A DNA stretch of 64,000 nucleotides from positions 1 through 64,000 of the forward strand of contig NC_134681.1 of assembly GCF_024713945.1 (NCBI RefSeq). Reading direction: 5' to 3'. Of this stretch, positions 5,640-57,402 are shown one piece after another (the stretch's first letter is position 1; each line of letters opens with the position of its first letter). A program made the position numbers and the translations under genes. Origin of the DNA: Dermatophagoides farinae. Lineage: Eukaryota; Arthropoda; Arachnida; Sarcoptiformes; Pyroglyphidae. The notes under the pieces were generated by a model. It saw nothing but the letters and a program-made list of their open reading frames with translations, was not told where the DNA came from and ran no database searches.

Positions 5640-5940
<301 letters not shown>

Positions 5941-8900: not shown

Positions 8901-9198
8901 AAATAGAATACATTTCTATTTCTTAAATTCTATTCAATTCTATTGCATTATATTCTATTTACTAACGAATATATTTTCTTTTCAGTTCAATTCAGATTCA
9001 GATTCAGATTTTGAGTTTCGTTTTCTTTTTCTTTTCTTTCATTTTCTATTCGAAAAAAAACAACATTTTCTATTACAGACATTCTATTTATTCGGCATTC
9101 TATTATCATCTTAAATGCATGAATTTTTGTTTTTTTTTCAAGTTAGAAAAAAATAAATAAATAAATAAAGAAAAAAAAGTATAATTCATTCTACTTAC

Positions 9199-12100
9199 CA
9201 AGAACATTATATGGTGTCCATGTGACAATGAATGCAAGTAAAATGGCTGACAATGTTTTTGCAGCTTTACGTTCAGATTTTGGTTGAAATGTTGCACGCA
9301 CACGTGTGAATGCGGCTGATGATGATAATAATGCTGGTGTCATTGTTGTTGATGTTTGTGATGTTGTTGTCGATTGTTGATGTTGTAATATATGTGCACC
9401 ATGCTGTTGTTGTTGTTGTTGTTGTTTTGTATTTATATTTATTGATGATGATTTAGTTGTCATCATTGATCCCTGTGGTTGACGATTTATTTTGGAACGT
9501 TGTTGTGGTTGTTGCTGTTGTTTTGCAACTAATACAGGTGTTGTATGTGTTGGTTGATTCTGTTGATTATTTTTAGAATTACTATTACTTTTAACACAAC
9601 GAATTGTGCAACAATTTTTAATCTGAATACTTGAATCACTATCATCTTCATCATCTTGTTCTGGTTCATTATCATTATTATCATCAATATCATCATCATT
9701 ATCTTCATCAAAATCATCATCATCTTCATCGAAATTATCATCATCATCATCATTAGTATACATAAATACATTGGTTTGTAAATCTTCATCAAGAATATCA
9801 TTATTATCGACATTAATAATTCCATCATCATCACCATCACCATCAACAACATCATATTCATCATCGATATCATCATCTAAGTCATCGTCATCATAATCAT
9901 CATCTTCAAGATTATCATCATTGATATCATAATTATCATCAATGTAAACATGACATTCATCAATATTATTTGTTCCCAATTGTTCTTGTCGATCAACATT
10001 ACGTTTATTATCCTTAGCAATGATTGATATCGATTGTAGTTCATCCGATATTATACCAGTAGCAGAATCTTGTCGGATCGCTGATGATGATGTTGATGAT
10101 GACCGTTTTGATCGATGTGATCGTAACATTTTAATTGATTCGCCGCTTCGTTGATTATCATGATGATTGAAATCTTTTGGATCCTGTAATTTTATAACAA
10201 TCGTATATATTGAACTATCCGATTGTGTATTATCATCATTGATTGATTCCATTTCTCTTATATGATAATTAATTCCCGTTTGTTTGATCGTTGACATGTC
10301 TAATGAATGATCGATCGATTTTGAAGGCATATCCATCATTCGTGGTCGAATATTTGTCGATGGCTGCTCTAATTCTAGGCTTTTTTGTTGACGAATCTGT
10401 TTCATTTTTTGTAATTGACGTCGTCTACGTAATCGTCGTAATCTATAAGCACAACCTGGACATTTAATTGCTGATGTTGTTTCGGTCGCTGTAACAACAC
10501 CTGATTGCAATTCTTGTATCGAATATTTTTTCTTTAATTGTGACCTTTTACTATGTTTACTACTATCGCTGCTACAACGTTTATGTCTGGTATTATTGAA
10601 TGTAAGCCGATTCCAGATCCAACCCAAGAATGTTAAAGATGATCTTCGAGATTCCGATGCTATTGAACCAATATCAGTCGCTGATGCAGCTGCTGCAATT
10701 TCTAATAGCTCATTTTCATAATCTTCAACATCTAAATCTTGTCCAACAATAGTTGCAGGTGATTTGAGACAAACTAATCCTTCAGTTGGATTTGGAATAT
10801 CTTCCAATTTAATCTCATCCCCATAATCATGTGTAGAGAATATTTTTGGCGCCGGTTCAACATATGATTGTTGACCAATAGATGTATGTGACATTGCTCG
10901 ACCAACAATCGAAATCGATGGCGTTTTATTATTGCTACGAAGTCGTGATGTACGGCCATGTGATGGTCGTACAAAACCGCAAGTTTTTTGTTGTTCAGAA
11001 TCTTTGCCGATTTCTTGTTGAGAAGTGGCCGTTGACACAACTATCTGACTTGTTCGAACTTTATTACGGTATATCAAACTACGTGGGCAGTTTGGTAAAT
11101 GGCTCGGACGTTTATGAGCTTTGGTCGATTGATTTTGATTCGAATTTTGATGATGACATTTCTTATCATCGCCAATAGGACTATTATTCGTAGTAGATTT
11201 CAATTTAATCTTACTTCGTGAATCACTAGTGGTTGGTAATGCGATATTTGTTCCACCAGTCAACGTGCCACTGGCAGTTGGTGTTGATGATTTTGTTATG
11301 GAAGTTGTTGTTGTCGTTGCAATCGTCGCCGTTGGTTGATTGGTTGTTGCCGGTGATATAACCACTAATGATGTGAGCTCACGATAACGATTTTCTGTCT
11401 CTCGCCAGATACGCCAATAAAGGATGCACATGATGGTTACTGGAATCCAGAATGCCATTATAGCGGTTATGGTTGTCACCCAAATGTTCGATTCAAGGAA
11501 TGGTATATAACATTGATGTTCAGGCACTGTACGGCGACCTTCGATCTTTGGCCAGGCAAATATCCACGGTGGCCATAATAATGCCGATACTATCCAAGCA
11601 AATGAAATAAATATACAAGCACGGCGCGTAGTTCTTTTGGCTCTATAGGTTAATGGCCGTGTAACCGAAAAATAACGATCAAATGATATTAATAACAGAT
11701 TTAATACAGATGCATTGGAATTAAGATAATCGATGGCCAACCAAATATCACAGATTGAATAGCCTAATGGCCAACCATCGGCAACAATATAAATCAATGA
11801 TAATGGCATCGAAATGAAACCGATAAGAAAATCAGCAACAGCTAATGATAATAAGAAATAATTTGAAATTGTTTGTAATTGGCGATCAATTTTGAATGCT
11901 ACCATCACTAAAACGTTTCCCAATATTGTAATTAATGATAATGATCCACCAATCAATATGATGGCATGATCAACAACTGTTAATTCCATGAATCCAGGAT
12001 CAGTATTATTTTTAATATCAACAGAATTATTATTTCTATCATATTCATGGTTTGATAATGATGTGACCACAGTCAGTGTTGTTGTTGTTTTTGTTGTTGT

Positions 12101-13660
12101 TGAATCACTTGAAAATGTAATTGAATCTATATCACTGGATGTCATTGTTGATGTTGGTGATGATGATTTATCGTTTTCGGGTAATTGTTTTTGGTGCAAT
12201 GGTTTCGGAATTGATTCAAAATAATTGCTTGTTATTTGTGATGATGGTGTTGGCATTGTTGTTGTGGTCATTATTATTGTTGAATCATTATTATTATCAT
12301 TAAGCTCGTTAAATAAAAGATTATATGGATAATAAACATTTAATATTGACATTATATCGGTATCGTGTAATGTTGCCGTTGTTGTGTAATCAATTTTTGA
12401 TACTTCTGTATCTATGATGGACGATGTTGTTCTAATTGTTGGTATTGTTGAAAACAATAACGACGATGATGACGATGGTGATAATGAGAATGTTTGTATA
12501 TTAGATTCTAATGAATTTTCAATCGCTGTTTCTGTTGCCATTGATGAATCAATTTCATCCATATGATGATGAATTGCAAGACAAAAATGATGATGATTAT
12601 TATCAATGAAAATATTGATAATAATTAATAAACAAAATATAAACATTAAACGATAAAACATGTTGTTGTTACCATTGTTCATTGATTTTTGATAATGATT
12701 ATAATGATGATGATGATAATAATAATTGGTATCCATCTTTGTCATTGTTGAATGATTATTTTGATTTTTCAATATTGAAAAAATATTGGAATGTTTTTTC
12801 AAATATGTTTTCATTGTAATTAATGGCGAATGAAAATTTTTATTTAAATTTTCACAATTTGATCTTTTTTCTCCAGATTTCTCAAATGAAATGACAATTT
12901 TTTCTTCACTATCAACATCATTAAATTCATCAACATTTTCATAGTGATCATCATAGAATTTATTTTGTTTGCATCTATCATCATCATCATCATTGTGGTT
13001 GGCTACAAAAATTTTATTAACATTTTGACATTGATAAAATCCATCCGAACAAATTGCCGTTGGTCTTTTTGATTCTTTTTTCTTTTTTTCTTTTTTCTTT
13101 TGTTGTTTTTGTTGTTGTTGATGGTGTTGTTGTTGTTGTTTGCCAATATTTTTGTCATCAATATTTTCATTATCATCTCGATATTGATGATACCAATCAA
13201 TTTTTTGATAGCTATCGCAATCATTTTCATCATCATCATCATCATCAACAACAACAACAACATGATCGTCATCGACCAGAATATTCGAATTATTATTATT
13301 ATTATTATTAGCAACAACAACAACAACAACAAATGCATCGCCATTGTCATTCATCATAAACAAAAATGATATCGATGATGATGATAATAATAACAATGAT
13401 GTTGGCATCGAAATTGACCACCATGAACAATGTTGATTATAATGATGATGATGATCATATAAATGAGAATATTTATCTGCATCACTAGTGTCGATTAATA
13501 TAATTAATTGAAAAATTTGGAAGTAATTTTGACATAATATCAATAATGGATGAAGGCAACAGGCATTAGAATTTTGATAAAAATATAATAAACAAATACA
13601 ATGCCGATGATTATAATGGCGATAATAATAATGATAATGATGATGATGACAAATAATCAT
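9199..13660 (-). CDS. Muscarinic acetylcholine receptor, A-type-like (lacks TM7 exon)
   Basis: Rhodopsin-family receptor for acetylcholine in the neuronal plasma membrane. One exon encodes about 1487 codons. TM1 is near residues 563-588, TM2 600-624, TM3 637-658, TM4 682-703, TM5 727-749 and TM6 1465-1487. Diagnostic features are the TM3 ligand aspartate D644 followed by Y645 ([19 protein letters not shown]), [17 protein letters not shown] at 661-677, ECL2 [11 protein letters not shown] with its cysteine pairing to C637, and WTPYNVL in TM6 with Y1484 and N1485. The ECL2 and TM5 wording is closest to arthropod A-type receptors. Loop 3 spans about 710 residues (750-1461), with a Thr-rich start, basic clusters and an Asp-rich block near 1233-1340. 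The exon ends in phase 1 at a GTAAGT donor, so TM7 and the tail are in a missing exon. The true start is uncertain: M283 or M327, the latter before a signal-like [15 protein letters not shown], may be better than M1. Confidence 0.88.
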
Positions 13661-16277
13661 CAGTCATTATAAAATGATAATCAATATGAATGAAACAAAA
13701 AAAAATGATTGATCCAAAATATCGATATTCACATAGTAGTAGTTTTATAGTTGGATATATATGGATGATATAGAAACTAGAAACAAAAAAATTTAGAAAC
13801 AGCGAAACAATTTCTATTATCGATCAATAAATGAATCGATTGATTGATTGATTAAGTGATTAATTCGAAATGATGATTCGATATATTTTTTTTTTTGGTT
13901 ATGTCAATTAATTTCGTTAATGATGATGATGATGATTAAATGTTGTTAATCATGTTGAATGTAGAATTCCAATGTGCACACAAATAGATGCAAACAGATG
14001 ACACACCACTTATCAGTAATAGTGTAAAACCAAAAAAAAAAACTACTTTACACATTTGATATTACAACAAATCCGAAAATGATTATTATTCGTGTTCGTT
14101 GTTCATTCATTCATTCACTAATGGATGGATGTGATCATCATCCGAATATATTTTTTTTGGAAAAATTTCCGGATATAAATTTCATAAAAAAGATGATGAT
14201 GATGATGATGATAATGATTTTCTCATCATCATCATCATGTTGTTGTTGTGTTAACATTCATCATAGTAACGATAATTCAATTAAATTCAATTTGATTGCA
14301 CTAGTTATTATTTTTTTTTTTTTTTTTGTCAATTCTTGTTCGTTGTTGTCAATGGTGATGGCCAAAGTTTAAACAAATCTAATGAATGAATTTAAAAGGA
14401 AAAAAAATATGTAAAAAAAAACATGCGTTTGAGAATGGAATATATTCATAGATGAATGAATGAATGAATGAATGAATTGGTGTTATATAATAATAATTTT
14501 AATTGAAAAGTTTTCCACTTGTATTCTTAATGTTCACTGTCTGTCTGTTTTGTTTTTTTTCTGCTGTAAATCATTATGGTTGCTCGAATTTTTTTTTCTT
14601 CTCAAACTCGGTTATCGTCACATTTGCATTGCTTCAGATGTGGTTTTTTTTGTTCCAGAATAAGTATATAGTCAAATCAGTTTTATATTCAACATGTTCT
14701 GGAAACAAAAAAAAAATTCATCATCATTTGATGCCACCATGATTAATATTAATATAATAATTAAAATTCATAAAATTTTGTTATCACGAAAAAAAAGAAT
14801 ATTCTGGATAAATCCTGAATTTTTTTTCCCTGTCCATCTATCTTTGTTGATCATATTTCATCAACAAATTTTTGCAATAGTTATGACGAATTATAATTAT
14901 AAATTCAAACGAACAGAAAAAAAAACAAACACTATTGATAACTGGCAATTTTTTGTTGCTTCTAATACTTGGACATTATGGTCAATAATAAAAAAGTTGA
15001 TCTCAAATTTCTATAAAAACTCAAAAATCTTTTCCACAAACATTTTTATCCATGATCATGATTCATAGAATAGATATAAATTCATTTATTCGACATTTTT
15101 TCATTTAAAAAAAACAAACAAACAAACAAAATACACAATTGTAATGCCGTTTTTTTTTGTCATTTTCTGTTATAATGATTATATATATAACATCCAGACA
15201 GAATCATCAATGAATTTGAAATGTTTTCATTTCTTTTCAAGAATGAAAAAAAAATGAAGAATATATAAAGACAACAAAAAAAAACCGATATGACAATGAC
15301 AATAAAGTTCGAATGTTGAAAGTTGATAAATTTGATGGCTATAATTCATCCGTATTTATATTTTATATTTATTTATTTATATATATATATATATGTGATA
15401 TACTATTTCACATTCATTCATACAATTTGATCCAGTTGAATTGAGCTGTCGTTTGATCGTTCATCTTTTCTTCTTTTATTTTTATTTTTTCTTTTCGATG
15501 ATTATTGTGAATTATGTTGTTGTTGTTGTTGTTGTTGTTGTAATAAAACATATATATATATATCGATTTGATTTAGTTTTGTTGAAATGAGAAAAACAAC
15601 AACAACAACAACAACAACATTAACAAGAAAAATTGGGACGTTGAACTTTTTATTTTCATTTCAATTTTCATGATGAAATCTGATGATATTAAAATCGAAT
15701 AAATGTAGAATAGAATAATTGAAACATTTTTTTAAATGAAAACAAACACCTGTTTGAACAATTGAATCAAAATTGAAAATTTTTTTTTACTCATTCAAAT
15801 TCCAAAACAACCAGGTTTGTTCGTTCACACACACACACACACACACACACAAAACAGCACTGCAAACAAAAATGGGATGAATAATGAAAAAGAAAAAAAA
15901 ATTCAAATTTGTTCATCCATAGATTTTAGTGATACACTGATTTTCACCACTGTAGCTGATTATTTAAGCCGAAAATTATTTATTTCTTCATCTTTATTGG
16001 AATATCTTTATGAAGCAAAAAAAAAAAAAAAAAATAAAAAAAATAAAACCACAAAAACAACACATTCTCTTATTACAACGGCAGACACACACACACATTC
16101 ACACACACACACAAACAATTTTATTTGGCACGTTTCATCATTCTTCATGGCACATGTGATGGAACTTACTAAAACACACACACACACACAACTGCGAAGA
16201 CAAACAAGAATTTTTATTCCATCTAAATTGTATGTATTTATTTTGTATTGTTATTTATGTGTATGTGTGTGTGTGTT

Positions 16278-22988: not shown

Positions 22989-30819
<7,831 letters not shown>

Positions 30820-36704: not shown

Positions 36705-38611
<1,907 letters not shown>

Positions 38612-48061: not shown

Positions 48062-50790
48062 ATGGTTGCTCCAAAATCTCATCATAGATTTTGGTTATTT
48101 ACAGATGATAATCACCATCATCATCATCAATGTCGCCAGAGTGATCGACAAAAATCGACTAAAATCAATCATCATCGAATTCGAAATTGTCAATCACCGA
48201 TAATGTTTTGTACAACGGATCAACAATTGTTATTATCATCGTCAACATTATCATCATGTTTTTCGAGATCTAAATCTAAATTTCAATCAAAATCGATATT
48301 GAAATCGAAATTAATTTCAATTTTTTCACTTGTTCATTCATTGATTATTATTTTGTCAGCATTGAATGTTCTTTATAATGTTAATGCTAATGGTATTTTG
48401 TTTTTTTAAATTGCTTTTTTTTCATTTTTGCTAATCATGTGGTCATTGGTCGGACAATATTTTTTTTTCAGTAATAATCAATTCCTTTAGAATCAGAATA
48501 TTAAACATTCTGATGATTATAAATGATATTGAATGACCAATGAACCATTTTCGTCTAATTTAATTTTTAATTAATTTTTTAAAAATTCAATTTTTAAATA
48601 AAATTAGAATTCAATGAAATCTGGCAACCACAAGCGGCACAAGTATTTGAAATAGAATATCCATTCGTTGTAGAACCATCACCATTACAGATTAATTCAT
48701 CAGACATTGTTATCAATGATACTGTTGCTATTAATAAAGTTAATAATAATAATGAAACTAATTCCAATTTGAATATGAATGATGTGCTATCGAAATATGA
48801 ACCAGAATTAAGTTACGAAGATGAATTAAATCTTATTGGTCATCGAACAAATGATGATGGATTGATCGAAGAAGATGAAGATGGATATGAAAATGAGAAT
48901 GAAATCGAAGACAATTCTAATGATAATGATGTTGATGATAGATGGAACAATTCTACATCAAGGGTAAGAATGATGTAATTATGATTAGATTGATGTTTTT
49001 TTTTTTGGAACAAATTCGAAAATTTTTCCATATAGTTGAAACGTGAAATATTTCGTGGCCAAAATTATCATTATCAACGTGGATATGAATTAAGTCGTCT
49101 TCGTTATGAGAATCGTCTTCGTACTGATCCTACAGCTGCCAAACCAAAAGCATTTTTTATTCGTGAATTTCATCAAGGTCGTGATGTTCCACGAGAATTG
49201 TTACGATTAACACACGGTGATATAATATCGGATACGATACAGCCATCCACTACATCACCACCAATTATTTCAACGGGTCATGATTCCGATATGAAAACCA
49301 TGTCAGATTATCAACAACAATTATTTGCAACAAAAGCAGCATTAAAAGCAGCATTGCAAAGTGGTGATAAAGATTTTAGTATTTTAGATTATCTCAATAA
49401 AATGAAAGCCAAAATTGATTCTGAACGTCAACAACAACAACAACAAAAACAAGGAAGTGGTGGTCATTCCGGTAGTATTGGTGGTGGTGTCGGTGCTCCT
49501 CTCATTCCAACAACAATAGGTGGTGGTGGTGGAAGCACCGGGAATATTGGTGGTATACCTGGTGGTGCTATCATACATCCAGATCAAATTATCGAACAGA
49601 TTAAAGATATTGACCAAAAACATGGTGGAATTGATGGAGGAAATTTAGGTGTACGATTCGATGAACAAATTAAAGAAGATCTGAATAAAATTCTTCCATA
49701 TGATCCAAGGTAAATTAACGATCTGATATGATTTTTATTAATAAAATTAATTTCAAGTAAACAATTCGGTGAACGTATTCGACCATTTCGCCCATCGTGG
49801 ATCGGATCAACGCCTGGTGCAGAACCAGGTCAAGGATCAAGCGGAAGTAGTGCTGGAATAGCAGGCGGGGGTTCTGGTAACCCAGCCGATGATTATCTGA
49901 ACAAAATTCGTCGTCTTTATCCACATTTGTTTCCCGGTCATTCAGGACAAGGAATACCAGGACAAAGACCTGGTGCAGGCGGCGGAACTGGCAGTGCTAG
50001 TCCTAGTTATGGTTCATCAGGAGACGGAAGTAGAACCAGTGGATCAGGAGAAGCTGGTAGGGATTCAGATGGCGATGGAACTGGAAGTCGACCTGGCGTT
50101 GGCCAAACTGGTTATGGGGGATCTGGAGGAGGTAACGACCCATATAGTGGAAGTGGAGCTGGTCCTAGCGGTGGTAGCGGTGCTGGTTCCGGAGCACCAT
50201 ATGCTTCTGGTGGTGGACCAAGTGGTCCGTTCGGCCCTAGTGGGGGTGGTTCTGGTCCCAGTAATCAATATGGAGGTGGTACTGGTCCTTCAGGATTAGG
50301 TGTCAGGCCAGTTATATCACCACCGTTTGTAACACCTATCGGAAATCGTACGGGAACATATCCTCCTTTACCGACACTTGGAACACCAGCTAGTGCATAT
50401 CCATCACGATTTCCAGGGCGTCTCTTATCAGCGTTGACACTTTATCCTGGAGTCCGAAACTCTACATTTCCGGGATTTCCTGGCTATATACGATTCGATT
50501 ATCCTGGATACAATACGGTGCCATATACAGGATTCCGATGCGAACTTCAAGCATATAAAATTGGTTATTATGCAGATGTAGCGGCTGGTTGTCAAGTTTT
50601 TCATATATGTCAACGTGATGGCCGTATGGATAGTTTTCTTTGTCCAAATGGAACATTATTCCATCAAAAAGTGATGACCTGTGATTGGTGGTATTTGGTC
50701 AATTGTCCAGCATCACCAAGCTATTATTATTTAAATGGACGTATTGGTGTATTGCCACCATTACCAGCAACATTGGGACGATTTGATTGA
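48062..50790 (+). CDS. Chitin-binding cuticle protein, single CBM14 domain (CPAP1-like), Gly-rich
   Basis: Probable extracellular cuticle or matrix protein that binds chitin. Exons 48062-48392, 48608-48963, 49036-49709 and 49758-50790 join in frame to 797 residues; the third intron is only 48 bp. The single type-2 chitin-binding domain lies near the C-terminus (cysteines from 715 to 770). Its six-cysteine spacing is C-16-C-5-C-10-C-12-C-7-C and it carries the aromatic-rich CQVFHICQ and CDWW features typical of single-domain peritrophin-analogous cuticle proteins. Before it lie an acidic segment, a conserved-looking basic region (LKREIFRGQNYHYQRGYELS), and a long Gly/Ser/Pro stretch (about 520-660). 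The only hydrophobic secretion signal is at about residues 82-108, after a long basic, His-rich N-terminus; the real start may be a later methionine such as 48202, or the protein is a signal-anchor type. AATAAA follows at 50799. Confidence 0.88.
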
Positions 50791-55126: not shown

Positions 55127-57402
55127 ATGAAATTTTTATCAATATCATCAATTTTATTGTTTGTCGTATTAACGGCAACAATCATCACTGTTGTTCATGG
55201 AAATTTTGATGGATATAAATGGTCGAATAATTTTAATGGTCGAGTAAGTTGAAGTAAAATTTTTCATTTTTGATTAATTTATTAATTTTTTTTTTTTTTT
55301 GGAAATTTTACAATGATAATAGTTTCGACGACAAGGAGTTAAAGGTCCCAAATACAATAGAGGTGGTGAGGCATCACAATCTGGTCTAGCTGGTGGTGCT
55401 CGACAATATGTACGACCTATGCCATCAAGTACTAATGTTGCTGCAGCAAGTTCATCTGCTTCTGCTAGTAGTAATGCTGGTGGACAATCTCAGAATTATG
55501 GATCAAATGATGGTAGCCAATTTCAAGGACAATCTGTTAGACCAATCGGTGGTGGCGGCAGATATTCTGGACAACAAAATCCTAGTAAATTTACTGGTGG
55601 TCAATCTGGTCAATATTGGCAGGGAAACGCTGGTGGTAATGATAATTCTGTTGATTCTGAACCACCATCATATGGAGGTGTTCAAGGAACACCTGGAGTA
55701 GATTTTCCCAACTACGCACGAATTCCAAATACTGCATTCACTTGTAACGGTGTTCCTTATGAACCGGGAATGTACGCTGATGAAGAAACACGGTGTCAAG
55801 TCTATCATGTTTGCTTTCAAGGCCGTAAAGAAAGTTTTCTTTGTGGTGTTGGAACCGTTTTTAATCAAGCTATTCTCGCTTGTGATTATTGGCATGCAGT
55901 TGACTGTGGTGCTTCTAGAAAATTCTATTCAGTCAATGAAGAATTAGGTATGTCTAGTGTTTCATCTACAGTTTTTTTCTCATTAATTTTTCCAAAAAAT
56001 AGGAAAAGCTGGTGCTGAGCCGTCACAAGGCGGACAAGCTGCATCTTTACGTGGACCAACTGGACCATCATTCAGTTCACCTGGACCAACCGGACCTTCT
56101 ATCCAAGCTCAAGGGCCAACCGGACCATCATTCAGCGCTTCAGGACCAACCGGACCATCATTCCAAGCTCAAGGGCCAACCGGACCATCATTCAGTGCTT
56201 CAGGGCCAACCGGACCGTCTTTCCAAGCTGAAGGGCCAACTGGACCATCATTCAGTTCATCTGGACCAACCGGACCATCATTCAGTTCATCTGGACCAAC
56301 CGGACCATCATTCAGTGCATCTGGACCAACCAGACCGTCATACCAAGCTGAAGGGCCAACTGGATCGTCATACCAAGCAGAAGGGCCAACCGGACCATCA
56401 TTCCAAGCTGAAGGGCCAACCGGACCATCATTCAGTTCATCTGGACCAACCGGACCGTCTTTCCAAGCTCAAGGGCCAACCGGACCATCATTCCAAGCTG
56501 AAGGGCCAACCGGACCATCATTCAGTGCTTCAGGACCAACCGGACCGTCATTCAGTGCATCTGGTCCAACCGGACCATCATTCAGTGCATCTGGACCAAC
56601 CGGACCGTCATTTCAAGCTGAAGGGCCAACCGGACCATCATTCAGTGCTTCAGGACCAACCGGACCGTCATTCAGTGCATCTGGACCAACCGGACCGTCA
56701 TTCCAAGCTGAAGGGTCAACTGGACCATCATTCAGTGCTTCAGGACCAACCGGACCGTCATTCAGTGCATCTGGACCAACCGGACCGTCTTTCCAAGCTC
56801 AAGGGCCAACCGGACCGTCTTTCCAAGCTGAAGGGCCAACCGGACCAACAGGTCCTTCCGGATTCGGCCCAGGCACATCACAAATGAAAAGCGATAACGG
56901 TATTGAAGTTGAAAGTGGCAATTTGCAAGTTCAGCCACAACCACCAATGAGAGGAAAAGAAAGTTGGTCATCTATGTCAGCTATGCGTGGTGGTGCACGT
57001 GGTAGAGGACGTGGTCAAGCTGGTCGTCATTTAATACCACCTGCGATTGGCGGAATAGATTTTGTAATGATGTCTCAACCAGTTAAAACACCCTTAAGAC
57101 CATCGCCGATATCAGTAGGAAAAATGCAAGCTCCAAGATATAGTCCTTCAACAAGTGGTTTGCATGCACCAAGTAGTCGACCGCAAGGTCCAAGATATAG
57201 TCCTTCAACAAGTGGTTTGCATGCACCAAGTAGTCGACCGCAAGGTCCAAGATATAGTCCATCAACAAGTGGTTTGCATGCACCAAGTAGTCGTCCACAA
57301 GGTCCAAGTGGATATACAGCTTCACAAGGTGGATCATTTCGAATGATTCAACAACAAAAACAACAGCAATTTGACAATACTCAACAAAAAATTGAATATT
57401 AA
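55127..57402 (+). CDS. Secreted CBM14 (CPAP1-like) protein with GPTGPS tandem repeats
   Basis: Probable secreted cuticle or matrix protein. Exons 55127-55243, 55323-55947 and 56003-57402 close in frame to 713 residues. A classic signal peptide spans residues 1-25 ([14 protein letters not shown], cleaved after VVHG). A basic Gly/Ser/Gln-rich region follows, then one chitin-binding type-2 domain (cysteines 180-234, spacing 16-5-9-12-7) with CQVYHVC and CDYW. Next come 26 units of 10 residues, GPTGPS plus FSAS, FSSS or FQAE/FQAQ (265-524), then an Arg-Gly patch ([12 protein letters not shown]), three 19-residue repeats with [12 protein letters not shown] (625-681) and a Gln-rich end. The Gly-Pro-Thr/Gly-Pro-Ser triplets are collagen-like, but every third triplet is broken, so a collagen helix is unlikely; an elastic or glycosylated linker is more plausible. 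The CBM14 domain is close in type to the gene upstream. Splice sites GTAAGT/TAG and GTATGT/TAG support the model. Confidence 0.9.
56053..56832 (+). repeat. 26-copy 30-bp coding minisatellite (GPTGPS array)
   Basis: Twenty-six in-phase 30-bp units, each starting GGA/GGG-CCA-ACC-GGA-CCA/CCG, code for GPTGPS followed by a four-residue tail. There are two main tail classes, F-S-A/S-S and F-Q-A-E/Q; two adjacent units (10 and 11) use Y. A diverged 27th unit follows at 56833. Single substitutions (GPTRPS in unit 9, GPTGSS in unit 11, GSTGPS in unit 22) show some decay. From unit 16 the order becomes regular. Confidence 0.95.
57133..57303 (+). repeat. Three tandem 57-bp coding repeats
   Basis: Three nearly identical 57-bp units encode [19 protein letters not shown] three times. 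Only a few synonymous differences separate them (for example CCT/CCA and CGA/CGT), pointing to recent duplication or ongoing homogenisation. Confidence 0.95.

Follow-up and report, generated by a model that had tools for sequence, protein, structure and literature searches.

The window examined here is the whole stretch of 64,000 nucleotides at positions 1 to 64,000 of the forward strand of contig NC_134681.1 in the Dermatophagoides farinae assembly GCF_024713945.1. Within it, positions 55127-57402 of the forward strand read as three exons that join into a single frame of 713 residues with one stop at its end, the exon joins being predicted from splice consensus alone (Table 1). The locus had been described in an earlier note as a three-exon gene for a secreted chitin-binding protein with a long repeat array. 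Its coordinates are exact, the three-exon frame is borne out under predicted splicing, and almost all that it says about the locus holds. Judged by its sequence, the locus is a real gene.

Table 1. Features of the repeat-bearing gene and of its upstream neighbour (positions in the window)
Feature	Positions	Strand	Details
Neighbouring CPAP1-like open frame	49732-50790	+	Gly/Ser/Pro-rich stretch, then CBM14 at 50557-50706
Exon 1	55127-55243	+	Start codon, hydrophobic N-terminus, first Arg of R-F-R-R; donor CGA/GTAAGT (slash marks the exon end)
Intron 1	55244-55322	+	79 nt, GT..AG; consensus only
Exon 2	55323-55947	+	Gly/Ser/Ala-rich stretch and CBM14 domain
CBM14 / ChtBD2 domain	55743-55907	+	aa 180-234; six Cys spaced 16-5-9-12-7
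Intron 2	55948-56002	+	55 nt, GT..AG; consensus only
Exon 3	56003-57402	+	Array, Arg-Gly patch, 19-aa repeats, stop codon
GPTGPS array	56053-56832	+	26 in-register 10-aa units, GPTGPSF(S/Q)(A/S)x; aa 265-524
Degenerate 27th unit	56833-56862	+	10 residues
Arg-Gly patch	56983-57027	+	15 residues
Three 19-aa repeats	57130-57300	+	Each (A/G) + 18 residues; aa 624-680

Inclusion of the array in the protein depends on removal of intron 2, as its retention would bring the frame of exon 2 to a stop at 56016-56018. Alternative acceptors for this intron (exon starts at 56009 and 56030) keep the frame open and leave the array unaffected in a slightly shorter protein. A simple scan of exon 3 found no GTRAGT or GTATG donors and no pyrimidine-tract acceptors, and thus there is no sign within this exon of the array being spliced out.

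Elsewhere the window contains a near-perfect AG dinucleotide repeat of about 300 nt (5642-5940), a 1490-codon open frame on the reverse strand (9191-13663) in which a rhodopsin-type receptor domain sits among long tracts rich in Asn, Asp, and His, exons of an ABC transporter (26402-30559), and an exon of tryptophan 2,3-dioxygenase (37416-38159). A further reverse-strand open frame of 198 codons (694-1290), which resembles gag by eye, gave no Pfam match at E 0.001.

The N-terminus of the protein is hydrophobic by hydropathy, which is the basis of the predicted signal peptide, and the protein is probably secreted. The first splice junction creates the motif RFRR at residues 39-42 (window 55241-55331), which is presumably a furin-type site shortly past the signal peptide and may serve as a trimming point of the secreted protein.

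The chitin-binding module is a CBM14 domain, matched by Pfam as CBM_14 (PF01607) at aa 180-234 with an E-value of 1.1e-10. It is the only ChtBD2 stretch in the protein, and its six cysteines, the only six of the whole chain, follow the strict CPAP1 motif CX15-17CX5-6CX9CX12CX6-7C, as given in an excerpt of PMC7379184. CPAP1 proteins are characterized in part of the text of PMC3504105 as having a single ChtBD2 and no further identifiable domain; their length varies, and conservation is confined to the domain. No second domain was found besides CBM_14 in Pfam at E 0.1. The domain count, the cysteine spacing, and the lack of a further domain together justify the label "CPAP1-like", and by its sequence the protein is CPAP1-like with one CBM14 of the CPAP1 type, as the earlier note had proposed. 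The likeness to CPAP1 proteins extends to a variable remainder of the chain and to the probable signal peptide, whereas the long regular array sets the protein apart from CPAP1 proteins generally. Searching solved structures with the domain returned three weak matches (best 8in3, E 0.0023), and a structure model of the domain was uninformative, with a mean pLDDT of 40.6. For CBM14 relatives, a viral contig collection that is not meant to hold mites gave six pattern matches, none of them confirmed.

The array is highly regular. An exact GPTGPS is present in 23 of its 26 units, the other three reading GPTRPS, GPTGSS, and GSTGPS, and the 26 regular ten-residue units claimed earlier are confirmed, in register. 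Shuffling the array residues 2000 times never yielded more than one GPTGPS, versus the 23 observed. Phenylalanine occupies position 7 in 23 of the 26 units. Position 8 defines two unit types that follow one another in irregular order, with Ser in 14 units and Gln in 12. There is a weak higher-order period of four units, as Tandem Repeats Finder scores are 952 at a period of 120, 764 at 60, and 655 at 30, and mean identity between units is highest at lags 4 and 8 (0.827 and 0.822), compared with 0.765-0.816 at other lags up to 12. Copy number is taken from one assembly.

In composition, the array is 20% Pro and 20% Gly (40% together) and 10% Thr, with Ser plus Thr at 33% and Pro, Thr, and Ser together at 53%. 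Its 270 residues include 25 Phe or Tyr, of which 2 are Tyr, and 9 charged residues, with no Lys and no Cys. The whole protein has no N-glycosylation sequon; mucin-type O-glycosylation of the array is possible given its Ser/Thr and Pro/Thr/Ser fractions. Beyond the array, the Arg-Gly patch and the three 19-residue repeats of the earlier note were both recovered, the latter with 96% matches in Tandem Repeats Finder.

Differences among the units point to constraint on the amino acid sequence. Ser-type units have a pS of 0.284 and a pN of 0.034 (pN/pS 0.12), and Gln-type units a pS of 0.261 and a pN of 0.059 (pN/pS 0.22). Over all 26 units the ratio is higher, at 0.48, owing in part to fixed-position differences between the two types. 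With synonymous differences exceeding amino acid differences within types, the array looks like translated, selected coding sequence, and the low within-type ratios may be due in part to gene conversion or recent duplication of units.

The domain belongs to a large family in this mite. The genome searched comprises 62,435,336 bases in 22 contigs of one assembly. One of its genes, on C1 (L026), gives on translation, from NNEIKK to GKIR, the Der f 2 chain with one difference visible by eye, which confirms the mite as Dermatophagoides farinae. The Pfam CBM14 profile matches at least 78 places in this genome at E 0.01, a figure that does not stand for a number of genes. Used as a query, the 82 residues of the protein itself match 16 places, their own included. 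By eye, eight of the genes behind these matches (L001, L002, L003, L005, L006, L008, L009, and L010, the present gene among them) have a D-(Y/F)-P and then (I/V)P.T.F.C in common ahead of the domain, and all but one of them also carry (Y/F).(L/V)N after it. The best non-self match (50500-50748) lies in the neighbouring CPAP1-like frame, an upstream frame of the same strand whose end is 4.3 kb from the gene. The two domains are 44% identical and both proteins have a Gly/Ser/Pro-rich region; in the neighbour, however, this region precedes the domain and contains no array according to Tandem Repeats Finder.

A tree of the domains was built from 26 of 33 rows; L053, L064, L066, L068, L076, L077, and L081 were dropped without test, and the tree did not include the genes whose domain is divided between exons (L008, L009/L014, L010, and L016). 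The tree is weak, with 1 of its 23 inner branches well supported. The present gene falls in a nine-row group that contains all six CPAP1-type rows included, with weak support (84/30). These six rows do not form one side of a branch, as two changes are needed, and of 200 bootstrap trees 0% unite them; none of 500 label shuffles did as well. The tree does not show the neighbour as the closest relative of the gene.

Within the genome, the repeat unit was found at this locus only. A degenerate DNA pattern for GPTGP followed by TC has at least 24 matches in the genome, and 24 of 24 lie inside the array; the reversed control pattern has none. These pattern counts and the similarity counts are lower bounds, and simple repeats are skipped. 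A 130-residue array query gave six genome matches, all within the array, two of them antisense with stops. With a 170-residue tail query, the two matches at E 0.01 were both at the locus itself, and no relative was found elsewhere in the genome. The array as a shared genome repeat is therefore rejected, being found at its own locus only. Relatives of the array were also sought in collections not meant to hold mites: none was found among plasmids, and neither the 155 pattern matches in genome contigs nor the 25 in viral contigs were confirmed.

Arrays as such are not confined to this gene. Among CBM14 loci, 46 were surveyed with about 1.5 kb on each side, which amounts to 33 places after 4-kb clustering and to part of the 78 profile matches; arrays were counted with units of at least 9 nt and spans above 80 nt. 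CBM14 together with a long in-frame array occurs at 3 of these 33 places, the present locus included, and the two others (of 32) have units of another sequence. At C1:8978659-8980482, an open frame has a 25-residue Gln/Pro-rich array between two CBM14 domains. This frame begins with a long Ser/Thr/Glu-rich region and has a Lys-Ser-Pro-rich stretch before the second domain (L063, L067). At C7:1662304-1665160, CBM14 domains are split by Thr-rich, mucin-like linkers in frame (L072-L074, L081), and a 450-nt higher-order repeat is present. A fourth, candidate case is an open EQER-type array close to a CBM14 exon on C5 near 635 kb (L010). The C1 and C7 genes thus share CBM14 and long in-frame tandem arrays with the present gene and differ from it in having several CBM14 domains and Gln/Pro-rich or Thr-rich units. 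What is special here among the CBM14 places of the mite is the unit sequence together with the single domain.

Novelty, as claimed in the earlier note, holds in part. The unit is found only here in the genome, but the excerpt of PMC3504105 has CPAP1 proteins conserved in their domain alone, and two of the 32 other places carry arrays of their own. The general design by its sequence fits a known class of arthropod cuticle proteins, with a tail unit that is absent elsewhere in the genome. No description of the protein was found among the listed titles and opening lines of abstracts from open-licence literature. In excerpts from that literature, GPTGPS appears once in the black widow silk protein CRP1 (PMC7397007), once inside a bacterial collagen-like protein (PMC10987987), and also in a paper on codfish peptides. 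For D. pteronyssinus, an excerpt of PMC12105342 counts 39 CPAP-like genes, 26 of them with one domain, and an ortholog may well sit in table S4 of that paper.

The explanation that best fits these features, with a probability of roughly 0.55, is a CPAP1-like, chitin-anchored, disordered matrix protein in which the array would be a hydrated, Phe-studded spacer. The single CBM14 domain would bind chitin, as expected from its family. The 26-unit Pro/Gly tail, with an aromatic residue about every ten positions, is likely disordered and hydrated, as Pro at 20% and Gly at 20% argue for such a chain; an excerpt of PMC5703643 ties high Pro plus Gly in self-assembled elastomers such as elastin to a disordered, hydrated, and elastic state. 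The tail would act as a long spacer whose Phe residues may make weak chain-to-chain contacts. In this way the protein would join chitin and a soft protein phase, and its most likely place, as we infer, is the cuticle. A chitin-anchored spacer or matrix role appears consistent with the sequence. CPAP1 genes are expressed in cuticle-forming tissue, according to the excerpt of PMC3504105. In D. pteronyssinus, juveniles show higher levels of most genes in the CPR-like, CPAP-like, and hypothetical groups (PMC12105342, in excerpt), which by analogy fits cuticle formation and is not data on the present gene.

The main rival, to which a minority share of the probability belongs, is a mucin-like peritrophic protein. 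The Ser and Thr residues beside Pro would be O-glycosylated and the product would form a hydrated barrier on the gut lining. Mucin-like peritrophins are defined by Pro/Thr/Ser-rich tandem repeats, and the array is of this kind, with Pro, Thr, and Ser making up 53% of a tandem repeat. Two other CBM14 genes of the mite have repeat arrays, which in one case are rich in Thr and resemble mucin. An excerpt of PMC12105342 reports that Der p 23 and Der p 37, two CBM14 proteins of the sister species, occur in the peritrophic matrix, and it also states that sequence hardly separates cuticle from gut CBM14 proteins. On the other hand, the domain is of the CPAP1 type with shared flanking features, Thr is only 10% of the array, and a regular Phe per ten residues is unlike the Thr-rich linkers of this mite. 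Likewise, group 23 mite allergens and mucin-like peritrophins resemble the protein in CBM14 and Pro/Thr/Ser-rich sequence and differ from it in that its array is based on Gly-Pro and Phe. In length, its 713 residues contrast with about 90 in group 23, such as the 92 of Sar s 23 (PMC4930577).

A more specific version of the spacer would make the array itself a material. Given the Phe at position 7 in 23 of 26 units and a nearly uncharged Gly-Pro chain (9 charged residues in 270), the array resembles a sticker-and-spacer polymer, to which the cohesive FG repeats of nucleoporins (PMC9918544, in excerpt) offer a loose parallel. It is unlikely, if conceivable from the sequence, that the Phe/Gly-Pro array is a "sticker and spacer" elastomer, with the chains cohering into a hydrogel or coacervate that CBM14 would hold to chitin. 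The obvious comparison is resilin, as excerpted from PMC12426002, where pro-resilin also combines a chitin-binding domain with Gly/Pro-rich sequence. Resilin has an RR-2 chitin-binding domain and Tyr in its elastic repeats for cross-links, whereas the mite protein has CBM14 instead, and its array contains 2 Tyr among 270 residues. With so few Tyr and no Lys, resilin-type cross-linking within the array is unlikely. Resilin by descent is rejected by the same Tyr count and the lack of an RR-2 match in Pfam at E 0.1.

Two further explanations are improbable. One assigns the protein to the matrix of another chitinous or egg-associated lining, such as the foregut, the reproductive tract, or an egg covering. 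An excerpt of PMC12105342 suggests reproductive linings or chorion as the place of action of sex-biased CPAP and hypothetical cuticle genes in D. pteronyssinus, but nothing in the present sequence points to such a role. The other, which is given equally little credence, holds that the array is drifting low-complexity filler produced by unequal exchange, without a job, and that only CBM14 matters. The weak four-unit period, seen in the best repeat score at 120 nt and at lags 4 and 8, and the free variation of CPAP1 proteins outside the domain (PMC3504105, in excerpt) would suit such an origin; against it stand 26 units in register and within-type pN/pS values of 0.12 and 0.22.

An interrupted collagen can be dismissed almost entirely. 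Collagen requires long uninterrupted Gly-X-Y, and in this Gly-Pro-rich sequence Gly-X-Y runs reach 12 residues at most, the longest falling at the degenerate last unit; Pfam at E 0.1 matches CBM_14 alone. These short runs and the ten-residue register exclude a collagen triple helix, and the description of the array as "collagen-like" in the earlier note does not stand.

Should the array act as an elastic spacer with cohesion, it would provide a natural repeat polymer, anchored to chitin and simple enough for production and testing, and an elastomer of this kind would be a resilin-like material with a different chitin-binding domain and no dityrosine. If it is not an elastic spacer, the protein would be another CPAP1-like protein with a lineage-specific tail, as the definition of the family allows. 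For a mite of medical importance, the protein is also a candidate component of the matrix.
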